DNA of 28,812 nt from a virus. The notes under the pieces were generated by a model, which was not told the DNA's origin, searched no databases, and saw only the letters and a program-made list of their open reading frames with translations. Positions within the stretch are counted from its first letter, which is position 1, and every line of letters begins with the position of its first letter. A program made the position numbers and the translations under genes. The stretch is from IMG/VR virus record IMGVR_UViG_3300030390_000339, positions 1-28,812 of that record, one strand, 5' to 3'. This document shows, piece after piece, positions 7,701 to 22,613 of this stretch.

Positions 7701-7701
7701 T

Positions 7702-7878: not shown

Positions 7879-8012
7879 AAGCAAAGAAACTAACTCAGGT
7901 CCAAAGGATTGGCCAGCTAGAAAAAACTATATCCAAAATATATTTAATACTAATGGAGTACAACAGAAACGTAGCGGAACTAAAAAAACAAATTGATGAC
8001 AAAGTTAAATAA
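7875..8012 (+). CDS. Hypothetical 45-aa helical protein
   Basis: The start overlaps the previous stop (ATGA), and the end overlaps the DnaA-like gene by 17 bases in another frame. The sequence (MKAKKLTQVQRIGQLEKTIS, then KIYLILMEYNRNVAELKKQI) reads as one amphipathic helix or short coiled coil. No family is known to me. It may help the next protein, with which it is coupled. Confidence 0.55.
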   Translation: MKAKKLTQVQRIGQLEKTISKIYLILMEYNRNVAELKKQIDDKVK

Positions 8013-8424
8013 CGTATTTCAAATACCGTTTACTAATAAGCAAATGAAACGGGTAGCAGACTTAGTTATACATAATACTAAACTAGATATATTTGATAAG
8101 TCTAGAAGACAAAAATATGTAGAGGCTAGAGCTTTATTTAATTATCTAATAAAAGTCGAATTTGGACAGACGTTATTTAGAATAAGAGACTACTACTTAA
8201 GCAAAGGTAAAAAGTCTCATCACACTACAATACTACATAGTATAAAAAGCTTTAAAGAGATAGCATTTAAAAACCCTGAGTATGTCGATATAATAGACGC
8301 CATTAAAGTACAAGAGGTTTCACCTAGACAAATCAATAATCTTATAGTAGATGTATGTAAGATAAAAAGCAAAAAGCAATTAGAGTCTACAAGAGAGTTT
8401 CTAAAAAATGTTTTACAAGAGTAG
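7996..8424 (+). CDS. DnaA domain IV-like DNA-binding protein
   Basis: From ATG 7996 the product has 142 residues; a TTG three bases upstream adds one residue and is not needed. Residues 38-90 resemble the DNA-binding domain IV of DnaA: RRQKYVEARALFNYLIK is the basic helix, LFRIRDYYLSKGK the middle, and KSHHTTILHSIKSF matches the RDHTTVLHA signature that reads DnaA boxes. The AAA+ ATPase of DnaA is absent. DnaA-tail proteins of this kind occur in phage replication regions. It may mark the phage origin or compete with host DnaA. It ends the early run, just before the first late-type promoter. Confidence 0.7.
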   Translation: MTKLNNVFQIPFTNKQMKRVADLVIHNTKLDIFDKSRRQKYVEARALFNYLIKVEFGQTLFRIRDYYLSKGKKSHHTTILHSIKSFKEIAFKNPEYVDIIDAIKVQEVSPRQINNLIVDVCKIKSKKQLESTREFLKNVLQE

Positions 8425-8450
8425 CAAATTAACAAAAAGTACGTTATATA
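8425..8450 (+). promoter_or_regulatory. Late promoter motif copy 1 (before small terminase)
   Basis: CAAAT at 8425-8429, then 12 nt, then CGTTATATA at 8442-8450. The CGTT starts 13 nt before the ATG at 8455. The CAAAT begins on the base after the stop codon of the DnaA-like gene. The same two blocks at the same spacing occur at 10784, 17866, 18730 and 22585. Confidence 0.7.
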
Positions 8451-8454
8451 TATA

Positions 8455-8808
8455 ATGACTGACAATACTGACACTAAAAAAAAGATGCTAGAAGCCCTGG
8501 AGTTTAACCTGGGTATCGTTTCGCATAGCTGTAGAACTGTTAACATAAGTAGACAGACACACTACCAATGGCTTAAAAACGATGAGGAGTATAAAGATGA
8601 GGTCGAGGCCATTTCTGAAAGTGCTATAGATTTTGTAGAGTCCAAACTATATGATAGAATTAAAGCAAACGATACGGCTAGTATAATATTCTTTTTAAAG
8701 ACTAGAGCTAAGAGCCGAGGGTACCAGGAACGAACTGAACTTGTAATGCCTGAAGCTAGAAAATTTGAGATAGAAGTTTTAGGACCAGCAAATGAAAGTA
8801 CAAACTAA
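8455..8808 (+). CDS. Terminase small subunit
   Basis: The 117-residue product begins with a helix-turn-helix region (KKKMLEALEFNLGIVSHSCR, then TVNISRQTHYQWLKNDEEYK). A helical oligomerisation segment follows (ESAIDFVESKLYDRIKANDT, ASIIFFLKTRAKSRGYQER). This is the classic order of phage small terminases, in which the HTH reads the packaging site and the helices form the ring. It overlaps the large terminase gene by 17 bases, confirming the pairing. The first late promoter motif ends 4 nt before its ATG, leaving little or no leader. Confidence 0.85.
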   Translation: MTDNTDTKKKMLEALEFNLGIVSHSCRTVNISRQTHYQWLKNDEEYKDEVEAISESAIDFVESKLYDRIKANDTASIIFFLKTRAKSRGYQERTELVMPEARKFEIEVLGPANESTN

Positions 8809-9949
8809 TATAGTCTACGACTATTTAAAACAAACCGATTCTAAGATAAAGATATTCCAGGGTGGGACTAGGTCTGGCAAGACTTACAATATTCTTATGT
8901 GGCTAATCTTTGGCTATGGAATGACTCAGACAGGAAAAACAATAACAATCTTTAGAGCTACTTATCCAGCGTTAAGAGCTACAGTAATGAGAGACTTCTT
9001 TGATATACTAGAGAGGTTCGACTTATACCTAGACGTAGACCACAACAAATCCAATAGCGAATATAAACTAAACGGTAACCTATTTGAGTTTGTATCAATA
9101 GACCAGTCTAGCAGACTTAAAGGACGTAAAAGAAATATAGCCTTTTTAAACGAAGCTAACGAGGCCAGCTACGAATCCTATAACCAAATACTATTTAGAA
9201 CCGAAGAGCAACTTATACTAGACTATAACCCTAGTGACGAGTACTCTTGGATATACTCAAAGGTTAAGACTAGAGACGATGCGTTTTTCTGTATAACAAC
9301 TTATAAGGACAATAGGTTTCTAAGCAAAGAGATAGTAAAAGAAATTGAACGTTTACAATATACAGACCAGGACTATTGGCGGGTGTATGGACTTGGCCAG
9401 GTAGGTAGAAATAAAGCAACTATATTTACATATTTAGAAGTGGACCAGATACCTAAAGAAGCAGAGTTTATCTCAGGCGGTTTAGATTGGGGCTTTGTAA
9501 ACGACCCTTCGGTTTTAGTTTTTGTTTATGTACTAGAAGACAATCTATATATAGACGAGCAATTTTATCAGTATGGAATGACAAACAGAGACATACATAA
9601 TAAATTTATAGAGTTAGGCTTTACAAGACAGACAGAGATATTTGCAGATAGTAGCGAACCAAAATCCGTAGACGAACTTCATAGGTTTGGCTGGAATGTT
9701 AAATCAGCATCTAAAGGCCGAGACTCAATTAACATAGGAATAGATTTACTAAAAAGATATAAGCTACATATAACCAGCAAGAGTATAAATACTTTAAAGG
9801 AGTTTAAAAACTATAAGTGGCAAGAGGACAAGAACGGTACGTTATTAAATGTACCAATACAAAAGAACGACCATTCAATCGATTCAAGCCGTTACGCAAT
9901 TATTAAGAAGCTGACTAGACCTAGAGTTGCCAGGTATGCAATAAGATAA
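8792..9949 (+). CDS. terL: Terminase large subunit (ATPase-nuclease)
   Basis: The 385-residue packaging motor has both expected domains. The ATPase has Walker A GGTRSGKT (24-31), Walker B IAFLNEAN (116-123) with catalytic E121, and a coupling motif LDYNPSD (about 143-149). The RNase H-like nuclease domain shows SGGLDWGF with D232, IFADSSEP with D286, and DHSIDSSRYA with D364. These acidic residues bind the metals that cut the concatemer. The size is at the short end but complete for PBSX-type terminases. It acts at the portal with the small subunit encoded just upstream. Confidence 0.95.
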   Translation: MKVQTNIVYDYLKQTDSKIKIFQGGTRSGKTYNILMWLIFGYGMTQTGKTITIFRATYPALRATVMRDFFDILERFDLYLDVDHNKSNSEYKLNGNLFEFVSIDQSSRLKGRKRNIAFLNEANEASYESYNQILFRTEEQLILDYNPSDEYSWIYSKVKTRDDAFFCITTYKDNRFLSKEIVKEIERLQYTDQDYWRVYGLGQVGRNKATIFTYLEVDQIPKEAEFISGGLDWGFVNDPSVLVFVYVLEDNLYIDEQFYQYGMTNRDIHNKFIELGFTRQTEIFADSSEPKSVDELHRFGWNVKSASKGRDSINIGIDLLKRYKLHITSKSINTLKEFKNYKWQEDKNGTLLNVPIQKNDHSIDSSRYAIIKKLTRPRVARYAIR

Positions 9950-9972
9950 TCTAAAAGTTTTATTAACATAGC

Positions 9973-10002
9973 TTGTGTATATCGCTTATATATTGTATAT
10001 TG
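9973..10002 (+). promoter_or_regulatory. Promoter candidate before the structured RNA region
   Basis: TTGTG at 9973-9977 and TATATTG at 9996-10002 lie 18 nt apart, near the Bacteroidota -33/-7 arrangement. A transcript from here would begin near 10010 and cover the tRNA-like element and the two small genes that end at the terminator at 10753. Confidence 0.35.
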
Positions 10003-10066
10003 TAATTGTTAATGAAACATAAAGTAAGTGCTAACTATAACTGCGCCTCTAAAAAGAAACATTAAT

Positions 10067-10183
10067 AACGAGATAGTGTAATAGGCAGCACAATTTATTT
10101 AGCAACTATAAATAATAACAAATTCTTTTTTTAATTCACAACGCTAAAATAGATAAGCATAGGTTCAAATCCTATTCTCGGAA
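10067..10183 (+). ncRNA. tRNA-like element with very long anticodon loop
   Basis: A cloverleaf can be drawn. Acceptor arm: 10067-10073 with 10176-10182, five good pairs (CGAGA/TCTCG) and two outer mismatches. Linker: TA. D arm: GTGT (10076-10079) with GCAC (10088-10091), and a loop holding GG. Anticodon stem: ATTTA (10093-10097) with TAGAT (10150-10154), one G-U. Variable loop: four bases. T arm: ATAGG (10159-10163), loop TTCAAAT, CCTAT (10171-10175). The T arm is textbook. The anticodon loop, however, is 52 nt rather than 7, so this is not an ordinary tRNA. It may be a degraded tRNA, a tRNA with an insertion, or another RNA that mimics one. No CCA is encoded. Confidence 0.4.
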
Positions 10184-10356
10184 CTAAGTAATTGTTAAAG
10201 TCAAATTCCCAATATATACGGAATGGTAGCGCAAGCAAAGGTCAAAGCAAAACCTAACGAGGCAATAAAGGAACTATCCTAGAAATAGTAATAAGGTATA
10301 TAATGAGAGTACCTACTCAAAGACAAATCAAAATCTCTATAATTTAAATTAATGTT

Positions 10357-10518
10357 ATGGAAAAAAATACTAAATTGCTATTGCAAAAAATAATAGACTT
10401 ACCTGAATACGAGCGTAAGCAAATTATATCCGTTCTTATAGCTTCAATGCTTAACAGCGAAAGCCAAGAGGACGCAAAGAAAACATACGATAGCATTATT
10501 AATCAATTAAGCAAATAA
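10357..10518 (+). CDS. Hypothetical 53-aa helical protein
   Basis: ATG at 10357 is preferred over one at 10352, which is out of this frame. The product (MEKNTKLLLQKIIDLPEYER, KQIISVLIASMLNS, then SQEDAKKTYDSIINQLSK) is helical and amphipathic. It ends one base before the next gene. No family is recognised. Its position right after the structured RNA region suggests that it is translated from the same transcript. Confidence 0.6.
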   Translation: MEKNTKLLLQKIIDLPEYERKQIISVLIASMLNSESQEDAKKTYDSIINQLSK

Positions 10519-10519
10519 G

Positions 10520-10744
10520 ATGGCAGATAAAAAAAAGAAAAACGACAAGTGGTTAGTTATGCAACTCTTAACCGATAAGTATATAAACTCTATAGTTATA
10601 GACAGACATATAAATTTAACCTCATCGACTACAGTAATAGACGCCAGGGTATGGACCAGCAAAGAGCTAGACGAGCTTTATAAAATATATCCTTTAGGAC
10701 GAGAGGGGTTCCACGCAAACTTTACTCTTATCGAGTATAAATAA
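10520..10744 (+). CDS. Hypothetical 74-aa protein
   Basis: Starts one base after the previous stop. A lysine-rich N-terminus (MADKKKKNDKW) leads to a body with strands and helices (YINSIVIDRHINLTSSTTVI, then VWTSKELDELYKIYPLGREG) and a final FTLIEYK. I see no motif that names it. A strong terminator lies 9 bases after the stop, so it closes the unit that includes the structured RNA. Confidence 0.65.
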   Translation: MADKKKKNDKWLVMQLLTDKYINSIVIDRHINLTSSTTVIDARVWTSKELDELYKIYPLGREGFHANFTLIEYK

Positions 10745-10752
10745 GAAACTAG

Positions 10753-10777
10753 CCTACAGAAATGTAGGTTTTTTTTT
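10753..10777 (+). terminator. GNRA-loop terminator before tail module
   Basis: CCTACA (10753-10758) pairs perfectly with TGTAGG (10763-10768) across a GAAA tetraloop, followed by nine Ts. It separates the two small genes from the tail operon, and late promoter motif copy 2 begins only 7 nt beyond. Confidence 0.9.
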
Positions 10778-10783
10778 GTCACT

Positions 10784-10809
10784 CAAATAAATTAAATTTA
10801 CGTTATATA
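10784..10809 (+). promoter_or_regulatory. Late promoter motif copy 2 (before tail operon)
   Basis: CAAAT at 10784-10788, 12 nt, then CGTTATATA at 10801-10809. The ATG at 10819 is 18 nt from the CGTT, the longest spacing of the five. It sits directly after a strong terminator, so a new transcription start is needed here. Confidence 0.75.
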
Positions 10810-10818
10810 TATAAGAAT

Positions 10819-11415
10819 ATGAAAAAAATAGAATTATTAGTACCTACTGACTTACAATCTATTCCGTTGTATCAATACCAGGAGTTTCTTAAAACTTTTG
10901 AGAATGTTGAAGATATGACAGACGAAGAGGCAAGCTTAAAGATGCTTAAAATATTTTGTGGTCTTACTCAAAAAGAAGGCTTAACATTTAAGATGTCTGA
11001 CGTTACTAAGGTAGTAGATAAGCTAAATAAAATACTAGTAACTAAACCTAGCTTAATAACTAAGTTTACTTTAGGTGGCCAGAAATTTGGATTTGTACCT
11101 CAGCTAAGCGACTTAAGCTTTGGCGAGTATATAGACGCTGAGAATAATCTAGGTGACTGGGACAATATGCATAAAGCAATGGCTGTATTATACAGGCCTA
11201 TAAAAGAAGAGTATAAAGATAAATATACTTTAAAAGATTATGACGGTGAACACTACGCCGAGATATTAAAAAATATGCCTACCAGTGTGGCCGTTAGTTG
11301 TCTGGTTTTTTTTTACGCTTTAGAGACGGAATTATTAGAAGTTACTCTGAACTCTTCGCTAGAAATAATCAAGACGAACAAACCGCTTTTGGAGTCGAAG
11401 AGGATTTTAGAGTAA
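10819..11415 (+). CDS. Tail assembly chaperone, G-like frame
   Basis: The 198-residue zero-frame product opens MKKIELLVPTDLQSIPLYQY and has a helical body (DEEASLKMLKIFCGLTQKEG) with a GFVPQLSDLSFGEYIDAEN segment. I recognise this pattern from tail chaperones of Bacteroidota phages, corresponding to lambda gpG. It would bind the tape measure protein and recruit tail tube subunits. A run of nine T (11306-11314) inside its 3' part allows a -1 frameshift into the overlapping frame that ends at 11588. The residues after the slip site in this frame (YALETELLEVTLNSS and on) form the short product's own tail. It is first in the tail operon, behind a terminator and a late promoter motif. Confidence 0.8.
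   Translation: MKKIELLVPTDLQSIPLYQYQEFLKTFENVEDMTDEEASLKMLKIFCGLTQKEGLTFKMSDVTKVVDKLNKILVTKPSLITKFTLGGQKFGFVPQLSDLSFGEYIDAENNLGDWDNMHKAMAVLYRPIKEEYKDKYTLKDYDGEHYAEILKNMPTSVAVSCLVFFYALETELLEVTLNSSLEIIKTNKPLLESKRILE
11307..11313 (+). promoter_or_regulatory. Programmed -1 frameshift site (T TTT TTT)
   Basis: Zero-frame codons are GTT TTT TTT TAC, so bases 11307-11313 form the X XXY YYZ heptamer T TTT TTT. A shift back by one base continues as TTA CGC TTT into the frame that ends at 11588. This matches the placement of lambda G/GT slippage. Confidence 0.75.
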
Positions 11416-11588
11416 GGTACGGCTGGTATAATAGCCTATATAAATTAGCGGGTGGTGACGTTACTAAAATAGAAGAGGTTAGTAAAACTAACTTACATTA
11501 TTGCTTAACTATGCTACAATACAAGATTGAGCTTGACAAGGCAGAGACAAAGAATTTAAAAAACAAATTTAAAAACAATGAGCGATAA
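11313..11588 (+). CDS. Tail chaperone, T-like frameshift extension
   Basis: This frame has no ATG near its beginning and overlaps the G-like gene for about 100 bases, so it is most sensibly translated only after the -1 shift. The fusion would be 165 residues of the G-like protein plus 91 from here, about 256 in all. The extension carries EEDFRVRYGWYNSLYKLAGG, then DVTKIEEVSKTNLHYCLTML. The W-Y-x2-LYKLAGGD element is what I expect in the GT part of such phages. It overlaps the next gene by 11 bases. Translation from TTG 11298 is an alternative but less likely. Confidence 0.75.
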   Translation, partial: LRFRDGIIRSYSELFARNNQDEQTAFGVEEDFRVRYGWYNSLYKLAGGDVTKIEEVSKTNLHYCLTMLQYKIELDKAETKNLKNKFKNNER

Positions 11589-12057
11589 CCAGGGAGCAAC
11601 GGCATTCTTTACAATGCTAGATACATTAAGATTATATTTATTAGAAGACCCTAATATTAACACTTGTACATATGGGGACTTGGCTCAAATTGATTTATCG
11701 AAACAAACTATTTTTCCTTTAGCGCACCTAGTCCCAAACAACGCTACAGTAGACGCCTCTGGCCAGACTATAACATTTAACGTAAGTGTTATTCTTATGG
11801 ATATAGTAGACATATCTAAAGAGACTAAAACAGATATATTTTACGGCATTACTAATGAACAGTTTATTTTAAATACAATGCTAGCTATTGGTAATAGATT
11901 ATTTAGTAGGTTTAAAGGTGGTGACTTAAGGCTAGAAGGCTACCAGGCTAATGGCGGTTTAAACTGCGAGCCATTCTACCAAAGATTTGAAAACCAATTA
12001 GCGGGTTGGAATTGTACATTTGATTTAACATTTAAAAACGATATTTATATATGTTAA
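11578..12057 (+). CDS. Tail terminator or neck-type protein
   Basis: The 159-residue protein begins with a helix (ATAFFTMLDTLRLYLLEDPN). Strands follow (TITFNVSVILMDIVDIS), then a helix (NEQFILNTMLAIGNRLFSRF) and a final strand, CTFDLTFKNDIYIC. The helix-strand order and the closing F-D-L-T-F strand fit small tail-completion or tail-terminator proteins that cap the tube. I know related proteins in Bacteroidota phages only as uncharacterised. It overlaps the chaperone extension and the next gene, which places it firmly in the tail operon. Confidence 0.65.
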   Translation: MSDNQGATAFFTMLDTLRLYLLEDPNINTCTYGDLAQIDLSKQTIFPLAHLVPNNATVDASGQTITFNVSVILMDIVDISKETKTDIFYGITNEQFILNTMLAIGNRLFSRFKGGDLRLEGYQANGGLNCEPFYQRFENQLAGWNCTFDLTFKNDIYIC

Positions 12058-12704
12058 GCGATGAGGTTGTTAGAGAGCTGGAGACATACGCACTAAACGT
12101 AATAAGCCAAGCTAAAGCTAATTTAAAAGATAACAAAGGTGGTGACCTATCTGAAAGTCTAGACTATAGAATTAACGATACGTTTGACTGGGGTGGCGTA
12201 TTAGAGTTTGTAGCTTTAGAGTATGGTAATTTTTTAGACCAAGGTGTACAAGGTGCTAACCCAAATGATTTATCCGCACCAGGCACAGATAAAAAAGGTA
12301 ATTCAACTCCAGGTTCTAAATGGTATGGAATACAAAAAGCTCCTTATAGCCCGTTTAGATTTGGTAGTGGTAATGGTCCTAGTGGTGGCCTTAGAGGTGC
12401 TATAGACAAGTGGACAATAACTAAAGGCATTCCAGACATAAGAGGCAAAGATGGTAGGTTTCTACCTAGAAAATCTTTAGTCTATTTAATGACTAGAAGT
12501 ATTTATCTAGCTGGACTATCACCGACTTATTTCTTTACAAAAGCTCAGGCATCTTATGACAGTACTTTAACCAATAAACTAGGCCTAGCTTTTTTAGATG
12601 ACGTAAGACTTAAAACATTAGAACTATTAGACCCATTAAAAACAAATGCAGCTTACACCCAGTTTTCGACAAGCCGAAGACCTAGAAAAAAATTTAATAT
12701 ATGA
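12051..12704 (+). CDS. Neck/tail completion-like protein
   Basis: The 217-residue product begins with a helix (MLSDEVVRELETYALNVISQ). A VALEYGNFLDQGVQG segment follows, typical of HK97 gp10-like head-tail joining proteins, in which a helix and a G-x-F-L-D-x-G turn recur. A glycine- and proline-rich linker (about 72-115) and an LSPTYFFTKA segment come later. It probably joins head and tail or completes the tail. It overlaps both neighbours (12051-12057 and 12701-12704). Naming rests on recalled family patterns, not on catalytic residues. Confidence 0.65.
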   Translation: MLSDEVVRELETYALNVISQAKANLKDNKGGDLSESLDYRINDTFDWGGVLEFVALEYGNFLDQGVQGANPNDLSAPGTDKKGNSTPGSKWYGIQKAPYSPFRFGSGNGPSGGLRGAIDKWTITKGIPDIRGKDGRFLPRKSLVYLMTRSIYLAGLSPTYFFTKAQASYDSTLTNKLGLAFLDDVRLKTLELLDPLKTNAAYTQFSTSRRPRKKFNI

Positions 12705-13681
12705 TATTACTTAGAAGCCCCTATATAATAAGCGTTGGCGAAATTGATAACTTAGGGTTTTGTATTTTAAGCCTAACCATAGACGGAGCCACAACTCCGC
12801 AATATACTATAACTAAAAATGCTTATCAGTTTATAGACTCTAACGATGACAATCAAGGTTTTTGTAGTTTTGATATTGCTGAATTATGTAGAGACTATAT
12901 AACAAACACTTATCAAGATTTAGCTGTTACAAATACTGTTGACACCGTTGCTATATCTTGGTCTATTCTAAAATACAGCTCAGCAAATCCTAGCGTATTA
13001 ATAGGTTCACCAGTTACAGGTTCAGACACAGGCATAAACGGATATACTGAATTTTCTGAGGGGCTTAATGCAGAAATAACAACTGACACAATACTATTAT
13101 CTGGTCAAAAAATATACTTACCTTTAAATGTTAGAACTACTATATTTACTTTTGAAAGTGGGTCTATAGTAAATAACGATGTCTCTTCTTCGGCTACCAG
13201 TATAAGCGTATTAGGCGGTAAAGGAATAGAAGTTGAAAGAATAAGAGAATGTAAGTACAGACATTTTAAAGTAACATTTATAAATAAATACGGTGTTTTA
13301 CAAGATTTATATTTTTTTATGAAAAGAATAGACAGTACTTCGGTTACTAATGAAAATTACAAAGCCAACGTACTTAATTTACTACAGGCAACACCGAGTT
13401 ATTCTACAACTAGCCACGTTAATAAAACGTTTAACTTTAAAGGGCAAGAATCTTTTACTATGTCTACGGGCTATGTAGATGAGTCTTATAATTCTTATTT
13501 ACAAGAGCTTATGCTATCGGAGTTTATTTGGGTTAAAAGGTCGGCTGGCTCTAACAGCCCTGTTGTACCTTGCGTTTTAAATACTCAAAGCTTTGTTAAG
13601 AAGACTAGTTTAAATGATAAGCTAGTAGAATACACTTTAGAATTTTCACCATCTAATCAAATTGTAAACAACGTCAGATAA
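12701..13681 (+). CDS. Distal tail/baseplate-like structural protein
   Basis: This 326-residue, strand-rich protein opens with RSPYIISV and carries FCSFDIAELCRDYITNTYQD. I know this pairing from a structural protein family of Bacteroidota phages, where RSPY is followed by F-x-I-x-x-L-x-RDY. There are few helices and no enzyme motif. The position before the tail hub and tape measure suggests a tail-tip or distal tail protein. The start overlaps the previous stop (ATGA), and its stop overlaps a tiny lipoprotein gene. Confidence 0.65.
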   Translation: MILLRSPYIISVGEIDNLGFCILSLTIDGATTPQYTITKNAYQFIDSNDDNQGFCSFDIAELCRDYITNTYQDLAVTNTVDTVAISWSILKYSSANPSVLIGSPVTGSDTGINGYTEFSEGLNAEITTDTILLSGQKIYLPLNVRTTIFTFESGSIVNNDVSSSATSISVLGGKGIEVERIRECKYRHFKVTFINKYGVLQDLYFFMKRIDSTSVTNENYKANVLNLLQATPSYSTTSHVNKTFNFKGQESFTMSTGYVDESYNSYLQELMLSEFIWVKRSAGSNSPVVPCVLNTQSFVKKTSLNDKLVEYTLEFSPSNQIVNNVR

Positions 13682-13791
13682 TGAGATTAATAATATTAGT
13701 TTTATGTTTTATTATTTTAAGTAGCTGTAAGCCGTTTAAGAAAATACCTAAAGACTTACCTAGTATTGCAAAAAACCAAAACTTTAAATAA
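13681..13791 (+). CDS. Tiny lipoprotein (36 aa)
   Basis: The start overlaps the previous stop and the stop overlaps the next start (both TAATG). The first 15 residues form a type II signal (MRLIILVLCFIILSSC) with lipobox L13-S14-S15-C16. The mature 21-residue peptide (CKPFKKIPKDLPS and on) is basic. After processing it would be a lipid-anchored peptide. Possible roles include an outer-membrane spanin-like part or superinfection exclusion; it is far too short for a known spanin, so I leave function open. Confidence 0.65.
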   Translation: MRLIILVLCFIILSSCKPFKKIPKDLPSIAKNQNFK

Positions 13792-15995
13792 TGAGAAAAG
13801 AGTTATCATTATACGTTAGAAATATTTACGGTTTAAACGAAGCTGAACTAGCAGACCAAGCAATACAACCTTTTGAGAGAGTAGATTTTTTTAAAGACGA
13901 GACAGTGACGTTGACTCAGACAATTAAAAACTCCACAGCACCAGACAAGTTGTTTACAGACTTTACTCAAGGTTTTACAATACCAGCTAGCTCGGTTAAT
14001 AATAAAATATTTAAACACTATTACAATAACGGTATAGTAGGTTATGACGCTAGAATAAAAGTCCCAGCAAGATTAGAGTTAAACTTAATGCCATTTAAAG
14101 ATGGTTTTATAAAACTAGAGTCTGTCGCTATGGAATTTGGTAAACCTAAAAGCTATAAGATTACATTTTTTGGTAATACGGTAGGTTTAACCGAATTATT
14201 TGGTGAAGACCAATTATCAAATTTAGAGTGGTTAAATAATTTTACCTTGCTTTATGATGGTGCGGTTATAAAATCTAGATTTACAAATAACAATAACAAT
14301 GTTACAGTAGACGGGGTTCAATATACAGACCCTATTATAACACCGCTTATAACACATACTAGAAGACTGTATTACAACTCTGGTCAGACTGTTGTACTTG
14401 GTGACGGAAACTTATCTTATACAGCTAACGATTTAAAAGGTGTTAGAGCTACAGACTTAAAATATGCAATAAGAAACGAAGTTATAATAAAGGCTATAGA
14501 AAAAACATATCCTACAATTAGTTTTGGCTCTAGTGCTACAAGCTTTTTTAGAAATAACAACGCTCCGTTTTACAATATGTATATGTGGCTTAGTAGACGT
14601 AAAGGTAGTGTAGTCGCTGACTCAAACTTTGAGGCTCCTGTATATCCGTCTTTGGTTCCGTTTTCTACAATTACTTCTAGTGATGTGGCTTTTGGTAGCG
14701 TAGACCCAGTGACAGGTATTACGGTTAATATACCTAGCCAATATACTAGTTTTGACGGGTCTGTTAGTTGTTCAATTCAGCCCGCTGGTGGTTCAGGTAG
14801 TGTTATATATAATTATGAATTATCTTATAATGGTTTAGCTGTTAGCTCGGCTTTAAATGTTATAGGTAGTCAAAATGTAGTTATACCAAATAATTTACAA
14901 AACGTAACTTCAGGAACTTTCACTTTAATTATATCACCTCAGTCAACTTTAGTTTTAACACAAGTTTCTTTAACTTTAGAGAGAGCTTATGTTAATGATT
15001 CTGGCGGTGATATAGAAGAGTCTTCACAATTTTCTACAGGGTCTTTTACTATAACAGCGGCGTTTAATTTTGAAATTACTCAGCAAATGCCACAGATGCA
15101 AATACTAGACTATTTAACAAATTTGTTTAAGATGTTTAATTTAATTGCGTATGTAACATTTGACCCAGCGTCTGGAATATCTACTATAGAAGTACAAGAC
15201 TATAACCAATATTATTTTGGTAACACTAGTGAATATGACCTTGGATATAAGTCTATAGACATAACAAAATATGTAACCGTAGACAAAGAAACTATAGCTA
15301 CAGCTTTACCTTATGGCGAAATTAATTTATCCTATAAAGATTTAAAAACTTTTTTTGCTTCTTTTCATAAACAAATAACAAATCAAAATTGGGGTACTGA
15401 AACTTATAGAGGGAATGATAATAGTTTATTTAGTGGCGATACTTATAAAGTTGAAATTGGATTTGAACACCAAAAATATGAAAGGCTAATAGACGGGAAT
15501 GGTCAAATAACAAAAACAATTCAGTGGGGTTGGTCTGTAGACGATAACGAAGAGTCTTATATAGGTAACCCTTTACAATTTTATGCTTATCGTAAAGTCG
15601 GTGGTACAACGTTATCTTTTATGATAAACGACAGTACTGTAGAACCTTTAACTAATTATTGGTTACCAGCTAATAGTATTATAACAGGCAATACAACGGC
15701 TAGCCAGAGTTTAAACTTTTTTCCTGAAACTGACGAGTGGACCTTTCAAGTTAATCTAAATACTTTATTTAAAAACTATTACGAGATTTATATGGAGGGT
15801 ATATTTGATTTTGCTAAAAGAATTATATCAGTAGAAGCTTATTTACCAGACTCAGTACTTAACGACTTACAATTAAATGACCGATTTATTATAGGCGATA
15901 GGACATACTTAATAAACTCTATAACCACAGACTTTGCTACAGGTAAAAGCAAACTAGAATTATTAACAGAAAACTTAAAACAAATACTACTATAA
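13791..15995 (+). CDS. Tail hub / large tail structural protein
   Basis: A 734-residue beta-rich protein. The N-terminal 130 residues include FTQGFTIPASSVNNKIFKHY, a pattern I know from large virion proteins of Bacteroidota phages. The middle (about 280-420) reads like an inserted Ig- or carbohydrate-binding-like beta domain (FDGSVSCSIQPAGG, TFTLIISPQS). The C-terminus (LNDRFIIGDRTYLINSITTD) resembles the end of tail hub proteins (T4 gp27-like), with strands around a D-R-F-I-I-x-x-x-x-Y core. It would form the tail tip on which the fibre sits. It lies just upstream of the tape measure gene. Confidence 0.65.
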   Translation: MRKELSLYVRNIYGLNEAELADQAIQPFERVDFFKDETVTLTQTIKNSTAPDKLFTDFTQGFTIPASSVNNKIFKHYYNNGIVGYDARIKVPARLELNLMPFKDGFIKLESVAMEFGKPKSYKITFFGNTVGLTELFGEDQLSNLEWLNNFTLLYDGAVIKSRFTNNNNNVTVDGVQYTDPIITPLITHTRRLYYNSGQTVVLGDGNLSYTANDLKGVRATDLKYAIRNEVIIKAIEKTYPTISFGSSATSFFRNNNAPFYNMYMWLSRRKGSVVADSNFEAPVYPSLVPFSTITSSDVAFGSVDPVTGITVNIPSQYTSFDGSVSCSIQPAGGSGSVIYNYELSYNGLAVSSALNVIGSQNVVIPNNLQNVTSGTFTLIISPQSTLVLTQVSLTLERAYVNDSGGDIEESSQFSTGSFTITAAFNFEITQQMPQMQILDYLTNLFKMFNLIAYVTFDPASGISTIEVQDYNQYYFGNTSEYDLGYKSIDITKYVTVDKETIATALPYGEINLSYKDLKTFFASFHKQITNQNWGTETYRGNDNSLFSGDTYKVEIGFEHQKYERLIDGNGQITKTIQWGWSVDDNEESYIGNPLQFYAYRKVGGTTLSFMINDSTVEPLTNYWLPANSIITGNTTASQSLNFFPETDEWTFQVNLNTLFKNYYEIYMEGIFDFAKRIISVEAYLPDSVLNDLQLNDRFIIGDRTYLINSITTDFATGKSKLELLTENLKQILL

Positions 15996-16141
15996 TGTTA
16001 AAAATAATTATTGACTTGTTAGAAAACGCTAACGGCGAGACAGAGAATATTAAAATAGCTCAAGGTAAATATAAACTAGCTGGTAGTATTAAAGAATCAT
16101 ATAACCAATTTAAAAAAGAATATAGATGGTTGAAAAAATAG
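15995..16141 (+). CDS. Hypothetical 48-aa protein
   Basis: ATG 15995 overlaps the hub stop (TAATG), and the 3' end overlaps the tape measure gene by 16 bases. The product (MLKIIIDLLENANGETENIK, then YKLAGSIKESYNQFKKEY) is short, basic and helical. No family is recognised. Its place between hub and tape measure suggests a minor tail assembly protein, by position only. Confidence 0.55.
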   Translation: MLKIIIDLLENANGETENIKIAQGKYKLAGSIKESYNQFKKEYRWLKK

Positions 16142-17862
16142 GCATTGAGGTTGAGGTTAAATCCAAAGGAGCCGCAGCCGCATTTAAAGAACTAGGAAAC
16201 GATATAGGTGCTTTTAATAAAAGCTTAGATAAAAATAGAGACGCAGTATCAGCTTTTGATTCTGTCACAGGCGGAGCAGTTTCTCAAGCTAGAAATATGT
16301 CTAAGTCTATTAAGGGAGCCGCTGTAGCAATTAAAGGATTTAACGCTAGTTTGTCTTTAACTAAAAAAGCAATATTAGCAACTGGTATTGGTATTCTAGT
16401 TGTAGCTTTAGGAGCTGTTATAGCATACTGGGACGATATAAAATCTATAATGTCAGGTGTATCGGTAGAGCAAAAAAACATTTTAGAGAATCAAACTAAA
16501 ACTACAGAAAACGCTCAGAAAAATTTAGATATGATTTCAGCTACTGAGAACATTCTAAAGCAACAAGGTAAAACTGACAAAGATATATTAAAGCTTAAAA
16601 TAGCTCAAACTAACGAAACTATAAAAGCTTTAGAAGCTCAGCTAGAAACTCAAATAACACAACGTCAAGAAGCTAAAGAGCAAGCTATGCGTATGCAAGG
16701 TTATTTGTCTGGGTTAATTCAATTTGTAGTTGGTCCTATAGGCTGGATATTAAAAGCTTATGATAAACTAACAGGAAGCAATACGTCACAAATTTTTGAC
16801 AAAATGGCTAGCTTAGCATTTAGTGCCGAAGACGAAGACGCTGACAAAGCTATTGAAGACGCTAAAAACAACTTAACTAAGCTTAAGAATATGAAGGCTG
16901 GTTTTGAAAACACTGTTAAAGCCAAAGAAAAAACTGATAGAGAAAAAGATAAAAAAGAAGAAGAAGAAGCAGAAAAAGCTAAAGCTGAGGCTATAGAGAG
17001 AATCCGTAAAGGCCTTATAGATACTGAAGCAAAAGAGAGAGCCGATAAATTAAAACAAATAGAAGACGATTACAAAGAGCAAATAGCTTTAGCTGAAAAG
17101 TATTACGGTATTGAGTCTGACAAAGTTTTAGAATTAAGAGCCGCTCAAAAAATAAAAGAAGACGAGCAACAAGCTATATTTGACGAGCAAGACGAGAAAA
17201 AAGAGTTAGACGCTCAAACTAAAAGACTAGAAGAGTTAGCCTTAGCTAAAGAAACTGAGCTAGAAGACTTTCAAACACAAAGAGACTTATTAGCTGAGCA
17301 AAGACAACTATTAGAAGATGACGAGCTATTGAGTGATGACCAAAAAAATGCAGCACTAAAAGCCAACTCTGAAGCTAGCGAAAAAATAACTGAACTTGAA
17401 TACATAGCTAAAAGAAATTCAGTGTTAAGCTACGCACAGTCTTTAGCACAATTTAGCGACATACTAGGTAAAGAAACGGCGGCTGGTAAAGCCCTAGCAA
17501 TAGCCTCTACTTTGTTTTCTACCTATCAAGGTGCTAGTGATGCTTTAAAAGACGAAACGATACCAAATACGTTTGCTAGAGTCGCTGCGGTTGGTACGGT
17601 ATTAGCAACAGGTTTTAAACAAGTTAAGGGAATTATGAGTACTCAGGTTCCTGGTGGTAGTGGTGGCCCTAGCCCTGTAATGAATGCTAGCGTAGATAGC
17701 TCACCTTCTTTTAATGTAGTAGGCCAAGGTGGTAGTAGTCAACTAGCTTCAGCTATTGCAGACCAACAAGCTGCTCCGTCTAGAAGTTATGTAGTAGCAC
17801 AAGACGTAACCACAGCACAAGCTTTAGAACGTAGTATAATAGACTCAGCTAGTTTAGGATAA
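16126..17862 (+). CDS. Tail tape measure protein
   Basis: The 578-residue protein opens with a VEKIGIEVEVKSKGAAAAFK segment typical of tape measure proteins. It has a membrane-like helix at about 82-101 (ILATGIGILVVALGAVIAYW) and a second hydrophobic stretch (LIQFVVGPIGWILKAY). A long charged coiled coil follows from about 260 to 420 (REKDKKEEEEAEKAKAEAIE and on), then a Gly/Ser/Pro-rich end. Tape measure length sets tail length; at about 0.15 nm per residue this gives a tail of very roughly 85 nm, short for a siphovirus. It ends the tail operon; late promoter copy 3 begins 4 nt later. Confidence 0.9.
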   Translation: MVEKIGIEVEVKSKGAAAAFKELGNDIGAFNKSLDKNRDAVSAFDSVTGGAVSQARNMSKSIKGAAVAIKGFNASLSLTKKAILATGIGILVVALGAVIAYWDDIKSIMSGVSVEQKNILENQTKTTENAQKNLDMISATENILKQQGKTDKDILKLKIAQTNETIKALEAQLETQITQRQEAKEQAMRMQGYLSGLIQFVVGPIGWILKAYDKLTGSNTSQIFDKMASLAFSAEDEDADKAIEDAKNNLTKLKNMKAGFENTVKAKEKTDREKDKKEEEEAEKAKAEAIERIRKGLIDTEAKERADKLKQIEDDYKEQIALAEKYYGIESDKVLELRAAQKIKEDEQQAIFDEQDEKKELDAQTKRLEELALAKETELEDFQTQRDLLAEQRQLLEDDELLSDDQKNAALKANSEASEKITELEYIAKRNSVLSYAQSLAQFSDILGKETAAGKALAIASTLFSTYQGASDALKDETIPNTFARVAAVGTVLATGFKQVKGIMSTQVPGGSGGPSPVMNASVDSSPSFNVVGQGGSSQLASAIADQQAAPSRSYVVAQDVTTAQALERSIIDSASLG

Positions 17863-17865
17863 AAA

Positions 17866-17892
17866 CAAATAATTAATTTAAAACGTTATATA
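17866..17892 (+). promoter_or_regulatory. Late promoter motif copy 3 (before protease)
   Basis: CAAAT at 17866-17870, 13 nt, then CGTTATATA at 17884-17892. The ATG at 17896 begins 12 nt after the start of CGTT, so any transcript would have almost no leader. Confidence 0.75.
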
Positions 17893-17895
17893 ATT

Positions 17896-18507
17896 ATGAA
17901 AGTAGTAGAATTAATAATTGACGAAACTGACTTAGAGTCTGGAGTTGACTGTATAAGCATAGTAGAACACCCAGCAATAGAAGAAAATTGGGTTGCTCTA
18001 AAAGATGAGAAAAAAGAATTTCAATTTAAAGAGGTCGATAAAGACCAAAGAATATTATTAGGAGCTTTACTAGTCCCTAATAAAACTATATACCGCAAAG
18101 ACGGACCAGACCAGGAGCCTTATTATATATTTTTTAATAAAGATACAGTAAGACTTGCAAGTGAATTATTTATGCAAAGAGGCTATCAAAATAATGCTAG
18201 CTACGAGCATATAGAAAAAATCAAAGGGTTGACTTTAGTAGAGTCTTGGATAATAGAATCTAAAGACCAGGATAAAAGCAACTTATACGATTTAGACTTA
18301 CCTGTAGGCACTTGGGTCGGAGCGGTCCGAGTACATAACGATAAAATCTGGTCTGACATAAAAGAGTCAGGAACTTTAAACGGTTTCAGTATTGAGGGTA
18401 TGTTTGGCGAAAAATACAAGACAGACGTAAAAGCGCATAAGCAAGAAATAAAAGACGGACTTAAACTATTAGCAATTAAAAAAGCTTTATTAGAAAATGG
18501 CAAATAG
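17896..18507 (+). CDS. Prohead protease (XkdF / S78-like)
   Basis: The 203-residue protein shows GVDCISIVEHPAIEENW near the start. LLGALLVPNKTIYRKD and YYIFFNKDTVRLASELF follow, then ASYEHIEKIKGLTLVESWII and LNGFSIEGMF. This matches the XkdF-like prohead protease family, serine proteases with H105 and S165 as probable catalytic residues. It would process scaffold and capsid proteins during head maturation. It sits directly behind the third late promoter and upstream of the scaffold-region genes and major capsid gene, the usual place for a protease. It overlaps the next gene by 11 bases. Confidence 0.88.
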   Translation: MKVVELIIDETDLESGVDCISIVEHPAIEENWVALKDEKKEFQFKEVDKDQRILLGALLVPNKTIYRKDGPDQEPYYIFFNKDTVRLASELFMQRGYQNNASYEHIEKIKGLTLVESWIIESKDQDKSNLYDLDLPVGTWVGAVRVHNDKIWSDIKESGTLNGFSIEGMFGEKYKTDVKAHKQEIKDGLKLLAIKKALLENGK

Positions 18508-18724
18508 AAACCAAAATATTCCTTTACCTAAAGTAACTCCTACAAATGGTAAGCGAGCCTGTTATTGTAAGGACGAAAATACTTATAGTCGTAGATGCTG
18601 TGACGGGTCCTACTGGGCGCAAGGAATTGGGACTATTATAAGAACCGAATTTTTTATTATAGCAGAAGACAGAGACGAGTTGTTAACCGAAGACGGCAAC
18701 GACTTTATGGTACCCGAAGTTTAA
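18497..18724 (+). CDS. Cys-rich small virion-region protein (75 aa)
   Basis: ATG 18497 lies inside the protease 3' end. The middle has four cysteines (RACYCKDENTYSRRCCDGSYW) and an AQGIGTI turn, a combination I recall in small proteins of Bacteroidota phages next to structural genes. The C-terminal 24 residues (FFIIAEDRDELLTEDGNDF and on) closely match the end of the protein at 26164-26352, so they look like a shared module. Function unknown. Late promoter copy 4 begins 6 nt after its stop. Confidence 0.7.
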   Translation: MANRNQNIPLPKVTPTNGKRACYCKDENTYSRRCCDGSYWAQGIGTIIRTEFFIIAEDRDELLTEDGNDFMVPEV

Positions 18725-18729
18725 AAATA

Positions 18730-18756
18730 CAAATAAATTAATCAATACGTTATATA
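18730..18756 (+). promoter_or_regulatory. Late promoter motif copy 4 (before scaffold region)
   Basis: CAAAT at 18730-18734, 13 nt, then CGTTATATA at 18748-18756. The ATG at 18760 begins 12 nt after the start of CGTT, the same spacing as copies 3 and 5. Confidence 0.75.
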
Positions 18757-18759
18757 GAT

Positions 18760-19164
18760 ATGAATACAAAGAATACGGTGTTTGCTAAATTGTTTAGTAA
18801 TAAAACTAAATTGTCTAAAAAAGTTAATTTAGCTTATAGAGAATCTGAATTAGACTCTGCTTTTACAGAGTTTCAAAACGAAAGAGGTGAGTTAGATTTT
18901 ATATTAAAAAATAAATTACCAGACGTTATTAATGAATTAAAAGATTTTATATCAATTATTGATAACTCAGAGTCAGAATTAAACCGACTTATTGAATTAT
19001 ATAATGACGCTCGAAAATATTATGAAGATGCTTCAAGTGAGTTAGGTATAGACCCAGAATCTATTGTAAATTATAGAAATTTAGATACTGATGTTTTTAA
19101 AGCTGAAGAACAATTACAAATTGCTAGTCAATTAAGGTCAGACATTAATAATATTAATATATAA
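18760..19164 (+). CDS. Scaffold-region coiled-coil protein, paralog A
   Basis: The 134-residue acidic, helical protein starts MNTKNTVFAKLFSNK. It contains long helices (LPDVINELKDFISIIDNSES) and an ASSELGIDPES motif (about 91-101), and ends in another helix. The VF-x-KLF start and the ELGID motif recur in the genes at 19167 and 19798. Lying between the protease and the scaffold and capsid genes, it is probably an accessory scaffold or internal head protein. I do not know a named family. It follows late promoter copy 4. Confidence 0.7.
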   Translation: MNTKNTVFAKLFSNKTKLSKKVNLAYRESELDSAFTEFQNERGELDFILKNKLPDVINELKDFISIIDNSESELNRLIELYNDARKYYEDASSELGIDPESIVNYRNLDTDVFKAEEQLQIASQLRSDINNINI

Positions 19165-19166
19165 AT

Positions 19167-19601
19167 ATGAACACAAAAAAAGCAGTATTCAGTAAGTTAT
19201 TTGGTAAGAAGCCGTTAACAGCAACTCAGCTTAAAAATCAAAAAGTAGCTTTAGGCTTGGTCCAGGATTTAGAATATGACTTAATGAGTTTACAAGACCA
19301 AAGCGGTTTGTTATCTTATTTAGCTTACGAATGGCACGACGAAAAATTTGAAGAGTACCGTCAAGCTTGGATGCAATTAAATGACGAGTATACTCATAAT
19401 GGTAGCGCAGTTTTAAGATATGACGACGTATCTAGGGATTTAGGTATTTTAGACGAGATTAAAGTAAAAGCCGACGAGCTAGGTTTAGACGCTAACGACG
19501 TATACGACCAATGGGACGAACACTACGCAGAGTTAGAAAATATGAAAGCAAACGACGAGCAGTATATTCGTAACGAGCAAGAATTTAGAGATTGGACGTA
19601 A
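19167..19601 (+). CDS. Scaffold-region coiled-coil protein, paralog B
   Basis: The 144-residue product opens MNTKKAVFSKLFGKKPLT, nearly the same as paralog A, and carries KADELGLDANDVY (102-114). The middle is acidic and helical with several Trp (EWHDEKFEEYRQAWMQLNDE). It begins two bases after paralog A stops and overlaps the next gene (TAATG). The shared ends with differing middles suggest duplication followed by divergence. A structural or scaffold role is inferred from place and from the acidic coiled-coil character. Confidence 0.7.
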   Translation: MNTKKAVFSKLFGKKPLTATQLKNQKVALGLVQDLEYDLMSLQDQSGLLSYLAYEWHDEKFEEYRQAWMQLNDEYTHNGSAVLRYDDVSRDLGILDEIKVKADELGLDANDVYDQWDEHYAELENMKANDEQYIRNEQEFRDWT

Positions 19602-19798
19602 TGAGTACACTAGACATAATAAATAGAAAACTTTTTAGAAAAGACGAAACTGTCGAAATGATAGTTAAGCGAATGTATAAAAAGATGGACTTAGAGAATT
19701 ATCCTTTTGACCAGTGTATTGCTGAGCAGACTAAGAAATACGGTGCTGAAGATGCGCCAAAGATTTGCGGATATATAAAAGAAAAATACGGGAGTTAA
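19601..19798 (+). CDS. Small PFDQCI-motif protein in capsid operon (65 aa)
   Basis: ATG 19601 overlaps the previous stop; a TTG at 19592 would add three residues and is not needed. The product has NYPFDQCIAEQTKKYGAEDA followed by KICGYIKEKYG. I have seen this F-D-x-C-I-A-x-Q-x-K-x-YG, ICG-x-IK pattern as a short module in phage and related capsid-processing or portal-associated proteins, where its role is unclear. The two cysteines are conserved parts of that pattern. It separates paralogs B and C. The stop overlaps the next start (TAATG). Confidence 0.7.
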   Translation: MSTLDIINRKLFRKDETVEMIVKRMYKKMDLENYPFDQCIAEQTKKYGAEDAPKICGYIKEKYGS

Positions 19799-20259
19799 TG
19801 AAAGATAATAAAGTATTTGCTATTTTAAAAAAGACTTCACTAATGAAGCTTAAAAATTCTAAAGTAGAGTTAGCTGCTATAGACGACTTAGAAACCGCTA
19901 TAGACAAAGCTGAAATATACAGTAGAGTTATTTTAATAAACGAAGCTATTGCAGACTCAGATGAGATATTAGATTTATACGAAGAGTTAAAATTTAAAAC
20001 TGAATCATATTTTAATAAATACGAAGATATTAATAATTGGTATTCTCAATTAAAGATAGAGAGAGACAATCTAGAAGAAAAAATGAATACATACGAAACT
20101 CTGACAGACGAGTTAGGTATTGACGCTAATACTTCAGAGTCGTTTAGATATGGAGACGAATTAATTTTTGATATGGACGATGAGTTTTTAACATACGACC
20201 AAAATTATAACAGATTCGTAGAAGCAGAAAAAATAAGTAATAACCTAAATATAAATTAA
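19798..20259 (+). CDS. Scaffold-region coiled-coil protein, paralog C
   Basis: From ATG 19798 it has 153 residues; an upstream TTG at 19765 would add eleven and overlaps the previous gene. It opens MKDNKVFAILKKTS, a weaker version of the A/B start. It is helical and acidic (ADSDEILDLYEELKFKTESY) and holds TDELGIDANTSES (103-115). A long acidic helix ends it. The relation to paralogs A and B is clear around ELGID and weaker elsewhere. A scaffold or accessory head role is likely by place. Confidence 0.7.
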   Translation: MKDNKVFAILKKTSLMKLKNSKVELAAIDDLETAIDKAEIYSRVILINEAIADSDEILDLYEELKFKTESYFNKYEDINNWYSQLKIERDNLEEKMNTYETLTDELGIDANTSESFRYGDELIFDMDDEFLTYDQNYNRFVEAEKISNNLNIN

Positions 20260-20279
20260 TAATCAATAAATAAATAAAT

Positions 20280-20903
20280 ATGAACACAACAGAAATGTTA
20301 AATCAAATTAAGACGTTGTTAGGAGCAAAAATAAACCTAGCGCAACTTATTTTGGATAACGGGACCGTAATAGAAGCTGATAGCTTTGAAAACGATGCGT
20401 CCGTTTTTATTGTCTCAGATGACGACAGAATTTCCTTACCTGTTGGTGAATATACAATCGAAGACGGTCGTATGCTTATCGTAACAGAAGAGGGAGTTAT
20501 ATCTGAAATTAGAGAGAAAATGGTAGAAGAGGAATTAGAAACTGAAGAGGTTATAATCGAAGCTCCAGAAGAGGTTGCAGACGAAATGGCGAAAGTTATT
20601 GAAGCTGTAGTTGAAGTTGTAGCACCAATTATTGAAGAGGTTAAGGAAGAAATAGAAGAGCTTAAGCGTAAGTTTGAGTCTATTCCTGAAGCTGAAGAAG
20701 AAGGTTATAAAGACGGAATCGCTGACGAAAAGGAAGACGAAAGAGAAAAAATGTCTTCACAGAAATTAGCATCTAGAAAATTAAAGCATAGCCCAGAGGC
20801 AAAAAGCAATAAAAAGCCTATGCAAACTCTATCTCAAAACAGAAATATGAATACAACTTTAGACAGAGTAATGGCTAAGGTATCTAAATTTAACAATAAA
20901 TAA
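20280..20903 (+). CDS. Capsid scaffold-like protein
   Basis: The 207-residue protein starts with a beta-rich domain (LAQLILDNGTVIEADSFEND, FIVSDDDRISLPVGEYTIED). A very acidic helical stretch follows (about 80-140, EELETEEVIIEAPEEV and EEVKEEIEELKRKFE), then a basic C-terminus. I know this N-terminal pattern from proteins just before the major capsid gene in Bacteroidota phages. The acidic coiled coil with a basic tail is typical of scaffolds that guide capsid assembly and are then cut by the protease. The next gene is the major capsid protein. Confidence 0.75.
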   Translation: MNTTEMLNQIKTLLGAKINLAQLILDNGTVIEADSFENDASVFIVSDDDRISLPVGEYTIEDGRMLIVTEEGVISEIREKMVEEELETEEVIIEAPEEVADEMAKVIEAVVEVVAPIIEEVKEEIEELKRKFESIPEAEEEGYKDGIADEKEDEREKMSSQKLASRKLKHSPEAKSNKKPMQTLSQNRNMNTTLDRVMAKVSKFNNK

Positions 20904-20912
20904 TAATTAAAA

Positions 20913-21914
20913 ATGAAAAGAGCAATTAAAAATAGAAATGTAAACTTAAGAACTATCTCAACTAGTGGTTCTTTAGACAACTTTACTACTACTTATGAAG
21001 GTCAATTTGCAAATGAATTTGTAGCGGCGGCGTTGCTTTCGGGTGTAACTTTAGACCAAGGTTTAATCACTGTAAAGCCAAACGTTAAGTATAAGGAAGT
21101 AATCAAAAAATTAAATATGGATAATATCGTTGTAGACGGGTCTTGTGACTTTACTTTTACAGCGGACGCTATCGACTTAGAACAAAGAATCTTAGAAGTA
21201 GGCGATTATCAAGTTAACCTACAAATTTGTAAGGCTGATTTTATTTCGGATTATTTAGCTTTAGAGCAAGGCGCATCTGCATTCGTAGATTTACCAGGTT
21301 CTTTTGCTGACTATATGCTAGCTCACGTAGCGGCTAAAGTAGCAGAAAAAACAGAGCAAAATATCTGGAATGGTGATGGAACTACGACTGGACAATTTCA
21401 AGGTTTAGTACCTAAACTAGACGCTGAAGCAAACTCAGTAAAAGTAACTCTAGCAGCTACTTCTTGGGCGGCTGCAACTATTATAAGCTCCTTAGGAGAA
21501 ATGGTAGATTCAGTGCCAGCGGGAGTATATGGTAAAGATGACCTTTATATTTACCTCGGAACGCTAGCGTACAAAGCGTATGTTAGAGCGTTAGGCGGAT
21601 TTGCTGCTAACGGAGTAGGTGGTTCAGGTACAAATGCACAAGGTACGCAATGGTACGCAAACGGAAACGGATTATCGTTTGACGGAATCAATGTGGTAAT
21701 GTGTCCAGGGATGCCAGCAACTAAGGCCGTAATAGCTGAAAAATCTAATCTTTTCTTTGGCACGTCTATTATTGACGAAGCGAACGGGTCAGTCGTAAAA
21801 CTTTTAGATATGTCAGATTTGGACGGTTCTCAAAATTGTAGAGTAATCGTAAGATTCTTTGCTGGAGCGCAAATCGGAGTACCACAAGATGCTTTAGTAG
21901 CAACTTTAGGATAG
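20913..21914 (+). CDS. Major capsid protein (HK97-like)
   Basis: The 333-residue protein has a long N-terminal arm, then EGQFANEFVAAALLSGVTLD. An E-loop-like and spine-helix region follows (SFADYMLAHVAAKVAEKTEQ), then NIWNGDGTTTGQFQGLVPKL and the end IVRFFAGAQIGVPQDALVAT. Size and order suit HK97-fold capsid proteins. The place next to protease and scaffold genes and the codon use of an abundant protein support the call. A GC-rich hairpin lies 23 nt after the stop. Confidence 0.9.
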   Translation: MKRAIKNRNVNLRTISTSGSLDNFTTTYEGQFANEFVAAALLSGVTLDQGLITVKPNVKYKEVIKKLNMDNIVVDGSCDFTFTADAIDLEQRILEVGDYQVNLQICKADFISDYLALEQGASAFVDLPGSFADYMLAHVAAKVAEKTEQNIWNGDGTTTGQFQGLVPKLDAEANSVKVTLAATSWAAATIISSLGEMVDSVPAGVYGKDDLYIYLGTLAYKAYVRALGGFAANGVGGSGTNAQGTQWYANGNGLSFDGINVVMCPGMPATKAVIAEKSNLFFGTSIIDEANGSVVKLLDMSDLDGSQNCRVIVRFFAGAQIGVPQDALVATLG

Positions 21915-21936
21915 TAAATTAAATTAATCAAACTAA

Positions 21937-21963
21937 GACGCCAGGTTTAATCGCCTGGTGGTC
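21937..21963 (+). other. Hairpin between capsid and tail tube genes
   Basis: GCCAGG (21940-21945) pairs with CCTGGT (21954-21959), five Watson-Crick pairs and one G-U. The stem extends outward through C21939-G21960 and, past a bulged G21961, with A21938-T21962 and G21937-C21963. The loop is TTTAATCG. No T-run follows, so it is not a normal terminator. It may protect the capsid mRNA's 3' end or slow transcription. Confidence 0.6.
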
Positions 21964-21986
21964 AAGGTTTATAAAACATATAAAGA

Positions 21987-22526
21987 ATGGCTTGTTTAGC
22001 ATTAAGTACTGGTAGAGCCTTAGCTTGCAAAAACGTAATGGGGGGCATCAAAGCCGTTTATTTTGCGGATTATGGAACGCTTGGGGACTTAACCATCACA
22101 GACGGTGAAATTACTGCATTTGGCGGTACACCAGCATTTTTCGAATATGACGTTAAAGGAAGCTCAGGATTGGAGCAAACTATAAATGCGTCTAGAGAGA
22201 ATGGAACGGTTTTTTACGAGCAGACGTTAACTTTAGTATTAACAAAATTAGACTTACTAACTCAAAACGAGTTAATTAAGGTAATTGATGCTAGACCATA
22301 CGCTGTAATAGAAGACTATAATAATAATTACCTATTAATTGGAGCCGATAACGGAGCTGATTGTAATGGTGGGTCAATTACCACTGGCGTTGCCGCTGGT
22401 GACCTCACAGGATTTTCAATTACTATGGCTGGCCAGGAAAAACTACCAGCATTTTTCGTAACTCCATCAGTATTACAAGGGGCGGTTTCTGCATCTTTTG
22501 CATCACCAACTCAAATTGTACCGTAA
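21987..22526 (+). CDS. Major tail tube protein
   Basis: The 179-residue product opens ALSTGRALACKNVMGGIKAV. This S-T-G-R-x-x-x-CK-x-x-x-GG-x-K-AVYFADY start is what I know from tail tube proteins of Bacteroidota siphoviruses. The rest is strand-rich (TVFYEQTLTLVLTKLDLLTQ, LTGFSITMAGQEKLPAFFV), fitting the beta barrel that stacks into the tube. Its place right after the capsid gene, not with the other tail genes, is unusual but suits two highly expressed structural proteins on one transcript. A terminator follows the gene. Confidence 0.8.
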   Translation: MACLALSTGRALACKNVMGGIKAVYFADYGTLGDLTITDGEITAFGGTPAFFEYDVKGSSGLEQTINASRENGTVFYEQTLTLVLTKLDLLTQNELIKVIDARPYAVIEDYNNNYLLIGADNGADCNGGSITTGVAAGDLTGFSITMAGQEKLPAFFVTPSVLQGAVSASFASPTQIVP

Positions 22527-22553
22527 TAATAAATTTTATTTTTACTTAAATTA

Positions 22554-22579
22554 AGCTACTTTTACGAGTGGCTTTTTTT
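22554..22579 (+). terminator. Terminator after capsid-tail tube unit
   Basis: AGCTACT (22554-22560) pairs with AGTGGCT (22567-22573), seven pairs with one G-U. The loop is TTTACG and a T-run follows to 22579. Late promoter motif copy 5 starts 6 nt later. Confidence 0.85.
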
Positions 22580-22584
22580 ATTAG

Positions 22585-22610
22585 CAAATTTATTTTTATT
22601 GCGTTATATA
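22585..22610 (+). promoter_or_regulatory. Late promoter motif copy 5 (before portal unit)
   Basis: CAAAT at 22585-22589, 12 nt, then CGTTATATA at 22602-22610. The ATG at 22614 begins 12 nt after the start of CGTT. It follows a terminator directly, so a fresh transcription start is expected here. Confidence 0.8.
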
Positions 22611-22613
22611 TAT

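Follow-up and report, generated by a model that had tools for sequence, protein, structure and literature searches.

Five exact copies of a two-box motif, CAAAT-N12/13-CGTTATATA, lie in the window, the whole 28,812-base record of a marine phage analyzed here. We propose, with a probability of roughly 0.83, that they are late promoters, with CAAAT as the -35 box and CGTTATATA as the -10 box, and that they are read by the host core RNA polymerase carrying a phage ECF-type sigma factor encoded at 4677-5288; sequence comparison and a structural model both point this way. In the proposed scheme, the host enzyme would transcribe the early region and the sigma factor would be made from it. As its fold and the rules of ECF promoters suggest, region 4 of the factor would then recognize CAAAT and region 2 would contact the CGTT box; transcription would start at an A some 12 nt downstream from the C of CGTT. 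A preliminary description of the window had anticipated a late promoter motif served by "a different sigma or an activator". The placement and conservation of the sites, the homology of the sigma factor, its co-occurrence with the motif, the spacing of the boxes and a T-A step downstream all favor that view, and the comparative evidence has supplied a candidate for the sigma, whose probable gene that description overlooked within its own window.

An exact search returned the five mismatch-free copies where they had been described, all on one strand, and recomputed distances between CGTT and the start codon agreed with those given (Table 1). No sixth copy was found anywhere in the record, none falls in the early region (1-8424), as had been claimed, and the shuffled-genome comparison that the preliminary description had suggested gave no copy in any of 100 dinucleotide shuffles of the window. 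A looser form, CAAA-N12-15-CGTTATA-ATG, occurs 5 times against a shuffle mean of 0.01. All five sites contain CGTT and therefore a CGT-containing -10 box, as found in ECF-type promoters. Their -35 box is CAAA[TA], which does not match the GGAAC-type -35 of many ECF sigmas, and this counts against our reading; the GGAAC type is a common feature of ECF promoters, not a universal one. The -7 box of Bacteroidota housekeeping (sigmaA) promoters, TAnnTTTG, is absent from the + strand of every site, again in line with the earlier account, and no classical TTG/TAnnTTTG pair was found on the + strand of the window.

Table 1. Proposed late promoters and associated features of the window
Feature	Coordinates (strand)	Gene or context	C of CGTT to ATG (nt)	Evidence
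Proposed late promoter 1	8425-8450 (+)	small terminase, ATG 8455	8442 to 8455 (13)	exact motif; same gene in relatives retains motif
Proposed late promoter 2	10784-10809 (+)	ORF 10819	10801 to 10819 (18)	exact motif; T-A step at +11/+12; hairpin upstream
Proposed late promoter 3	17866-17892 (+)	prohead-protease-like ORF 17896	17884 to 17896 (12)	exact motif; retained in relatives
Proposed late promoter 4	18730-18756 (+)	ORF 18760	18748 to 18760 (12)	exact motif; retained in relatives
Proposed late promoter 5	22585-22610 (+)	ORF 22614, then portal 23030	22602 to 22614 (12)	exact motif; hairpin just upstream
Putative phage ECF-type sigma factor	4677-5288 (+)	203 aa, GTG start; proposed activator of the five promoters		profile and predicted fold
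Terminator-like hairpin and T run	10751-10770 (+)	upstream of promoter 2		z -2.6
Terminator-like hairpin and T run	22553-22574 (+)	upstream of promoter 5		z -3.5
DnaA domain IV-like DNA-binding protein	7993-8424	directly before promoter 1		Pfam Bac_DnaA_C 6e-5

The genes that follow the sites fit late units in part. The first unit runs from the small to the large terminase, and the identities proposed earlier held for the small terminase, the protease (prohead-protease-like) and the portal unit. They were not confirmed for the supposed tail chaperone, ORF 10819, which matches phrog_32199, a group of unknown function, or for the supposed scaffold region, ORF 18760, which has no database match. 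Terminators had been said to precede two copies, and terminator-like hairpins do end ahead of copies 2 and 5, their T tails stopping a few nucleotides short of the motif. Elsewhere in the window, 10069-10180 gives an Rfam tRNA match of 33.7 bits over 112 nt, a length that implies a large insertion; ARAGORN called no tRNA, and the match is possibly an interrupted or remodeled one. An ORF cut at the end of the window (28773-28812) seems to resume at 1-288 with a one-base overlap (compare locus L131, 5205-5588). The genome may therefore be complete and circularly permuted, in which case the fifth late unit would extend toward the amidase and holin genes.

The sigma factor was identified through its family. 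On its own, the product of 4677-5288 matches the NCBIfam model TIGR02937 (sigma70-ECF) over residues 21-191 at E=7e-4, below the curated cut-off, and searched alone it shows no PHROG or Pfam sigma match. Homologues were confirmed at no fewer than 447 IMG/VR loci in one scan, and 56 non-redundant members were aligned. TIGR02937 matches 47 of these (best 9.7e-12), Pfam sigma region 2 (PF04542) matches 25 (best 1.3e-5) and phrog_1740, annotated "RNA polymerase sigma factor", is matched by 10; region 4 has no separate Pfam match in the 56-member family. An AlphaFold2 model of the window protein reached a pLDDT of 86, and ECF sigma factors lead the matches in a full-length fold search with it. The region 4 half superimposes on region 4 of E. 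coli sigmaE bound to -35 DNA (2h27; rmsd 2.0 over 68 residues, Z 8.6), and the region 2 half on sigmaE region 2 bound to -10 DNA (4lup; rmsd 2.6 over 75 residues). Fold-match Z values of 8-10 are modest for a protein this small and helical, and a sequence profile search of the PDB gave only weak ECF matches amid chance histone matches. As in ECF factors, there are two domains with neither region 1.1 nor region 3, joined in the model by a low-confidence linker at about 81-110. Both domains, the order in which they stand and the sequence profiles all agree, which makes a strong case that the ORF encodes an ECF-type (group IV) sigma. No relatives were found in bacterial genomes. Two ORFs of no known family, 5411-5614 and 5614-6078, adjoin the sigma gene and recur in each of the 19 profiled relatives; 5411-5614 is a candidate for a sigma partner or regulator.

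The motif search was extended to relatives, as the preliminary description had advised, and the motif recurs at their late genes. Among loci collected by portal homology, without regard to motif or sigma, CGTTATA placed exactly 12 nt before ATG was the top position-specific 7-mer (42 of 62 occurrences). When motif-scan records 18 kb or longer were compared, 8 of the 9 that carry the motif before an ORF had a sigma homologue, vs 2 of the 47 others (Fisher p=2.7e-7); one of those two, L077, has the motif 8 nt before an ORF, outside the placement rule. All 19 relatives profiled encode the sigma. The CGTT box follows CAAA at a distance of 17-18 in 50 of 52 matches from phages with a long sigma and of 19 in most phages with a short one (25 of 38; two of the remaining matches go with a single long sigma that a frameshift has split). 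Co-occurrence and subclade-specific spacing thus support a link between the sigma and the motif, with the qualification that these sequences are related and the counts are not independent; the spacing may simply be inherited. About half of the sigma-bearing loci have no detected site, often probably because the fetched stretch excludes the late region, and de novo motifs in these loci were mostly A/T-rich words with no clear alternative promoter. Two records stand apart: at 24093-24657 in that of L190 (G006) the sigma homologue is broken by a frameshift or assembly error, and at 29617-30105 in that of L120 (G074) a weak sigma relative (E 1.9e-14) occurs in a phage with no placed motif, which may use another promoter class.

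Cultured counterparts were reached through the portal gene rather than by sigma search; tblastn of cultured phages with the window sigma and two other family members returned nothing. The Nonlabens phages P12024S and P12024L (Inhavirus, 35.7 kb genomes) encode a diverged homologue of the short type (hhalign E 6e-11), annotated as a hypothetical protein with Sigma-70 region 2. Like the window, they combine the sigma with start-codon-linked promoters; their -10 box is CGTTAA where that of the window is CGTTATATA. Each genome has six CAAA-N-CGTTAA sites, 5 of them 12 nt before ATG, against 0.03 expected in P12024S, and one promoter precedes the gene ahead of portal. Neither sigma nor sites were found in the flavobacterial control phages Fpv5 and P12002S. 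We had considered sigma length as the determinant of box spacing, and this idea lost ground since the P12024S sigma is short yet the spacing is 18. In the literature searched, no description was found of the P12024S/L promoters or of crAss-like or flavobacterial phage promoters in general, most subscription papers falling outside the search.

Could a host sigma, of the ECF or housekeeping type, read the late promoters with help from a phage DNA-binding activator, for instance the DnaA domain IV-like protein? Flavobacterial hosts do own ECF sigmas whose promoters have CGT at -10 (PMC9723704), and the DnaA-like protein is present in 18 of 19 relatives, its gene sitting just ahead of promoter 1 in the window. 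Against this, the phage sigma is encoded by every relative profiled, its subclades differ in promoter spacing, and the TAnnTTTG box expected of the housekeeping sigma is missing from the sites. The DnaA-like protein was also downgraded as the specific factor because a relative of it occurs in P12002S, which has neither the motif nor the phage sigma. We therefore regard a host sigma as an improbable reader of these sites. No match to a T7-like single-subunit RNA polymerase was found among the scanned ORFs, a subset that included the large ones.

The start of transcription was approached by aligning sites according to d, the distance from the C of CGTT to ATG. At sites with d=12, T directly precedes the ATG in 91 of 93, compared with 46% at other starts. 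When the start codon lies farther away the pattern stays in place: for d=14-16, 20 of 21 sites have T at position 11 and all 21 have a purine at position 12, and for d of 17 or more, A occupies position 12 at 26 of 27 sites, with T at position 11 falling to 18 of 27. Since the T-A step at +11/+12 remains with the motif when the ATG moves, it belongs to the promoter and not to the start codon. It looks like a pyrimidine/purine initiator, and the exact start could be 1-2 nt off; its distance is about that expected for a start at ECF promoters. In three of the five window units the predicted start A coincides with the first base of the start codon, and strictly leaderless mRNAs are predicted for them; leaders of about 1 nt and 6 nt are predicted for copies 1 and 2. 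The earlier suggestion of leaderless or near-leaderless messages is thereby supported, with the refinement that copy 2 would have the longer leader. Such messages are uncommon in flavobacteria, which tells against our model: they make up 5.5% of the mRNAs in F. psychrophilum (PMC9723704), and 87% of leaders in F. johnsoniae exceed 10 nt (PMC6847099).

The same measurements bear on whether the CGTTATATA-ATG block might be a translation element, acting in the mRNA as a ribosome-binding signal or as context for the start codon. A modal distance to ATG of exactly 12 nt would suit such an element. It would leave unexplained the CAAA box that accompanies the block 17-19 nt upstream, the position of the sites at the heads of units, two of them behind terminators, and the restriction of the block to sigma-bearing phages among those tested. 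Above all, the T-A step tracks the motif at sites whose ATG is 14-23 nt away, and because it follows the motif rather than the ATG we rejected the translation reading, which is now very unlikely. Operators for a phage repressor, or replication or packaging sites, are hardly to be expected either: identical repeats of ~26 bp could indeed be bound by another protein, but the sites share a single orientation with the genes, a fixed start-codon geometry, an ECF-like -10 box and a spacing that varies by sigma subclade.

If the five sites are promoters for the phage sigma, a large family of phage proteins that lacked annotation gains a function (at least 447 loci), and the late-promoter rule can be used to read gene order in many uncultured marine phages. 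Both the rule and leaderless late mRNA are directly testable in the cultured pair P12024S/P12024L. The many natural pairs of sigma and promoter vary in spacing and -10 box and could also be material for studying sigma specificity. More tentatively, and at somewhat less than even odds, we suggest that in a widespread family of Bacteroidota phages the phage sigma starts late transcription on the start codon itself, so that the first messages of the structural genes are leaderless. Should this be true, leaderless late mRNAs in hosts that seldom use them could work as a late switch at the level of both translation and transcription.

The closest parallels are in mode of working. Phages phiEco32 and 7-11 encode their own sigmas, which read phage-specific promoters before structural genes (middle/late promoters in phiEco32, the 7-11 system being a prediction) and are distantly related to the sigmaA family (PMC4331800). 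They resemble the window in having such a distantly related phage sigma, phage-specific promoters for structural genes and, as presumed for the window, early genes expressed from host promoters (PMC4331800). Their consensus is a single extended -10 block, tAATGTAtA, whereas the window has a two-box CAAA-N-CGTTATATA element fixed to the start codon; the hosts also differ, and the window genome is smaller. Promoters of the ECF sigma SM6 of Flavobacterium psychrophilum share the CGT box at -10, but serve a chromosomal type IX secretion regulon rather than phage late units (PMC9723704). E. coli sigmaE and Mycobacterium tuberculosis sigmaH, the latter with strict promoter spacing (PMC6411747), are like the window sigma in the predicted fold of both DNA-binding domains and in a short GT-containing -10 box; they are chromosomal stress regulators with a GGAAC-type -35, in contrast to the CAAAT of the window. 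Taken together, phage sigmas that drive late promoters were already known from phiEco32 and 7-11, and what the window would add is a sigma family, a class of promoters and the joining of promoter to start codon.
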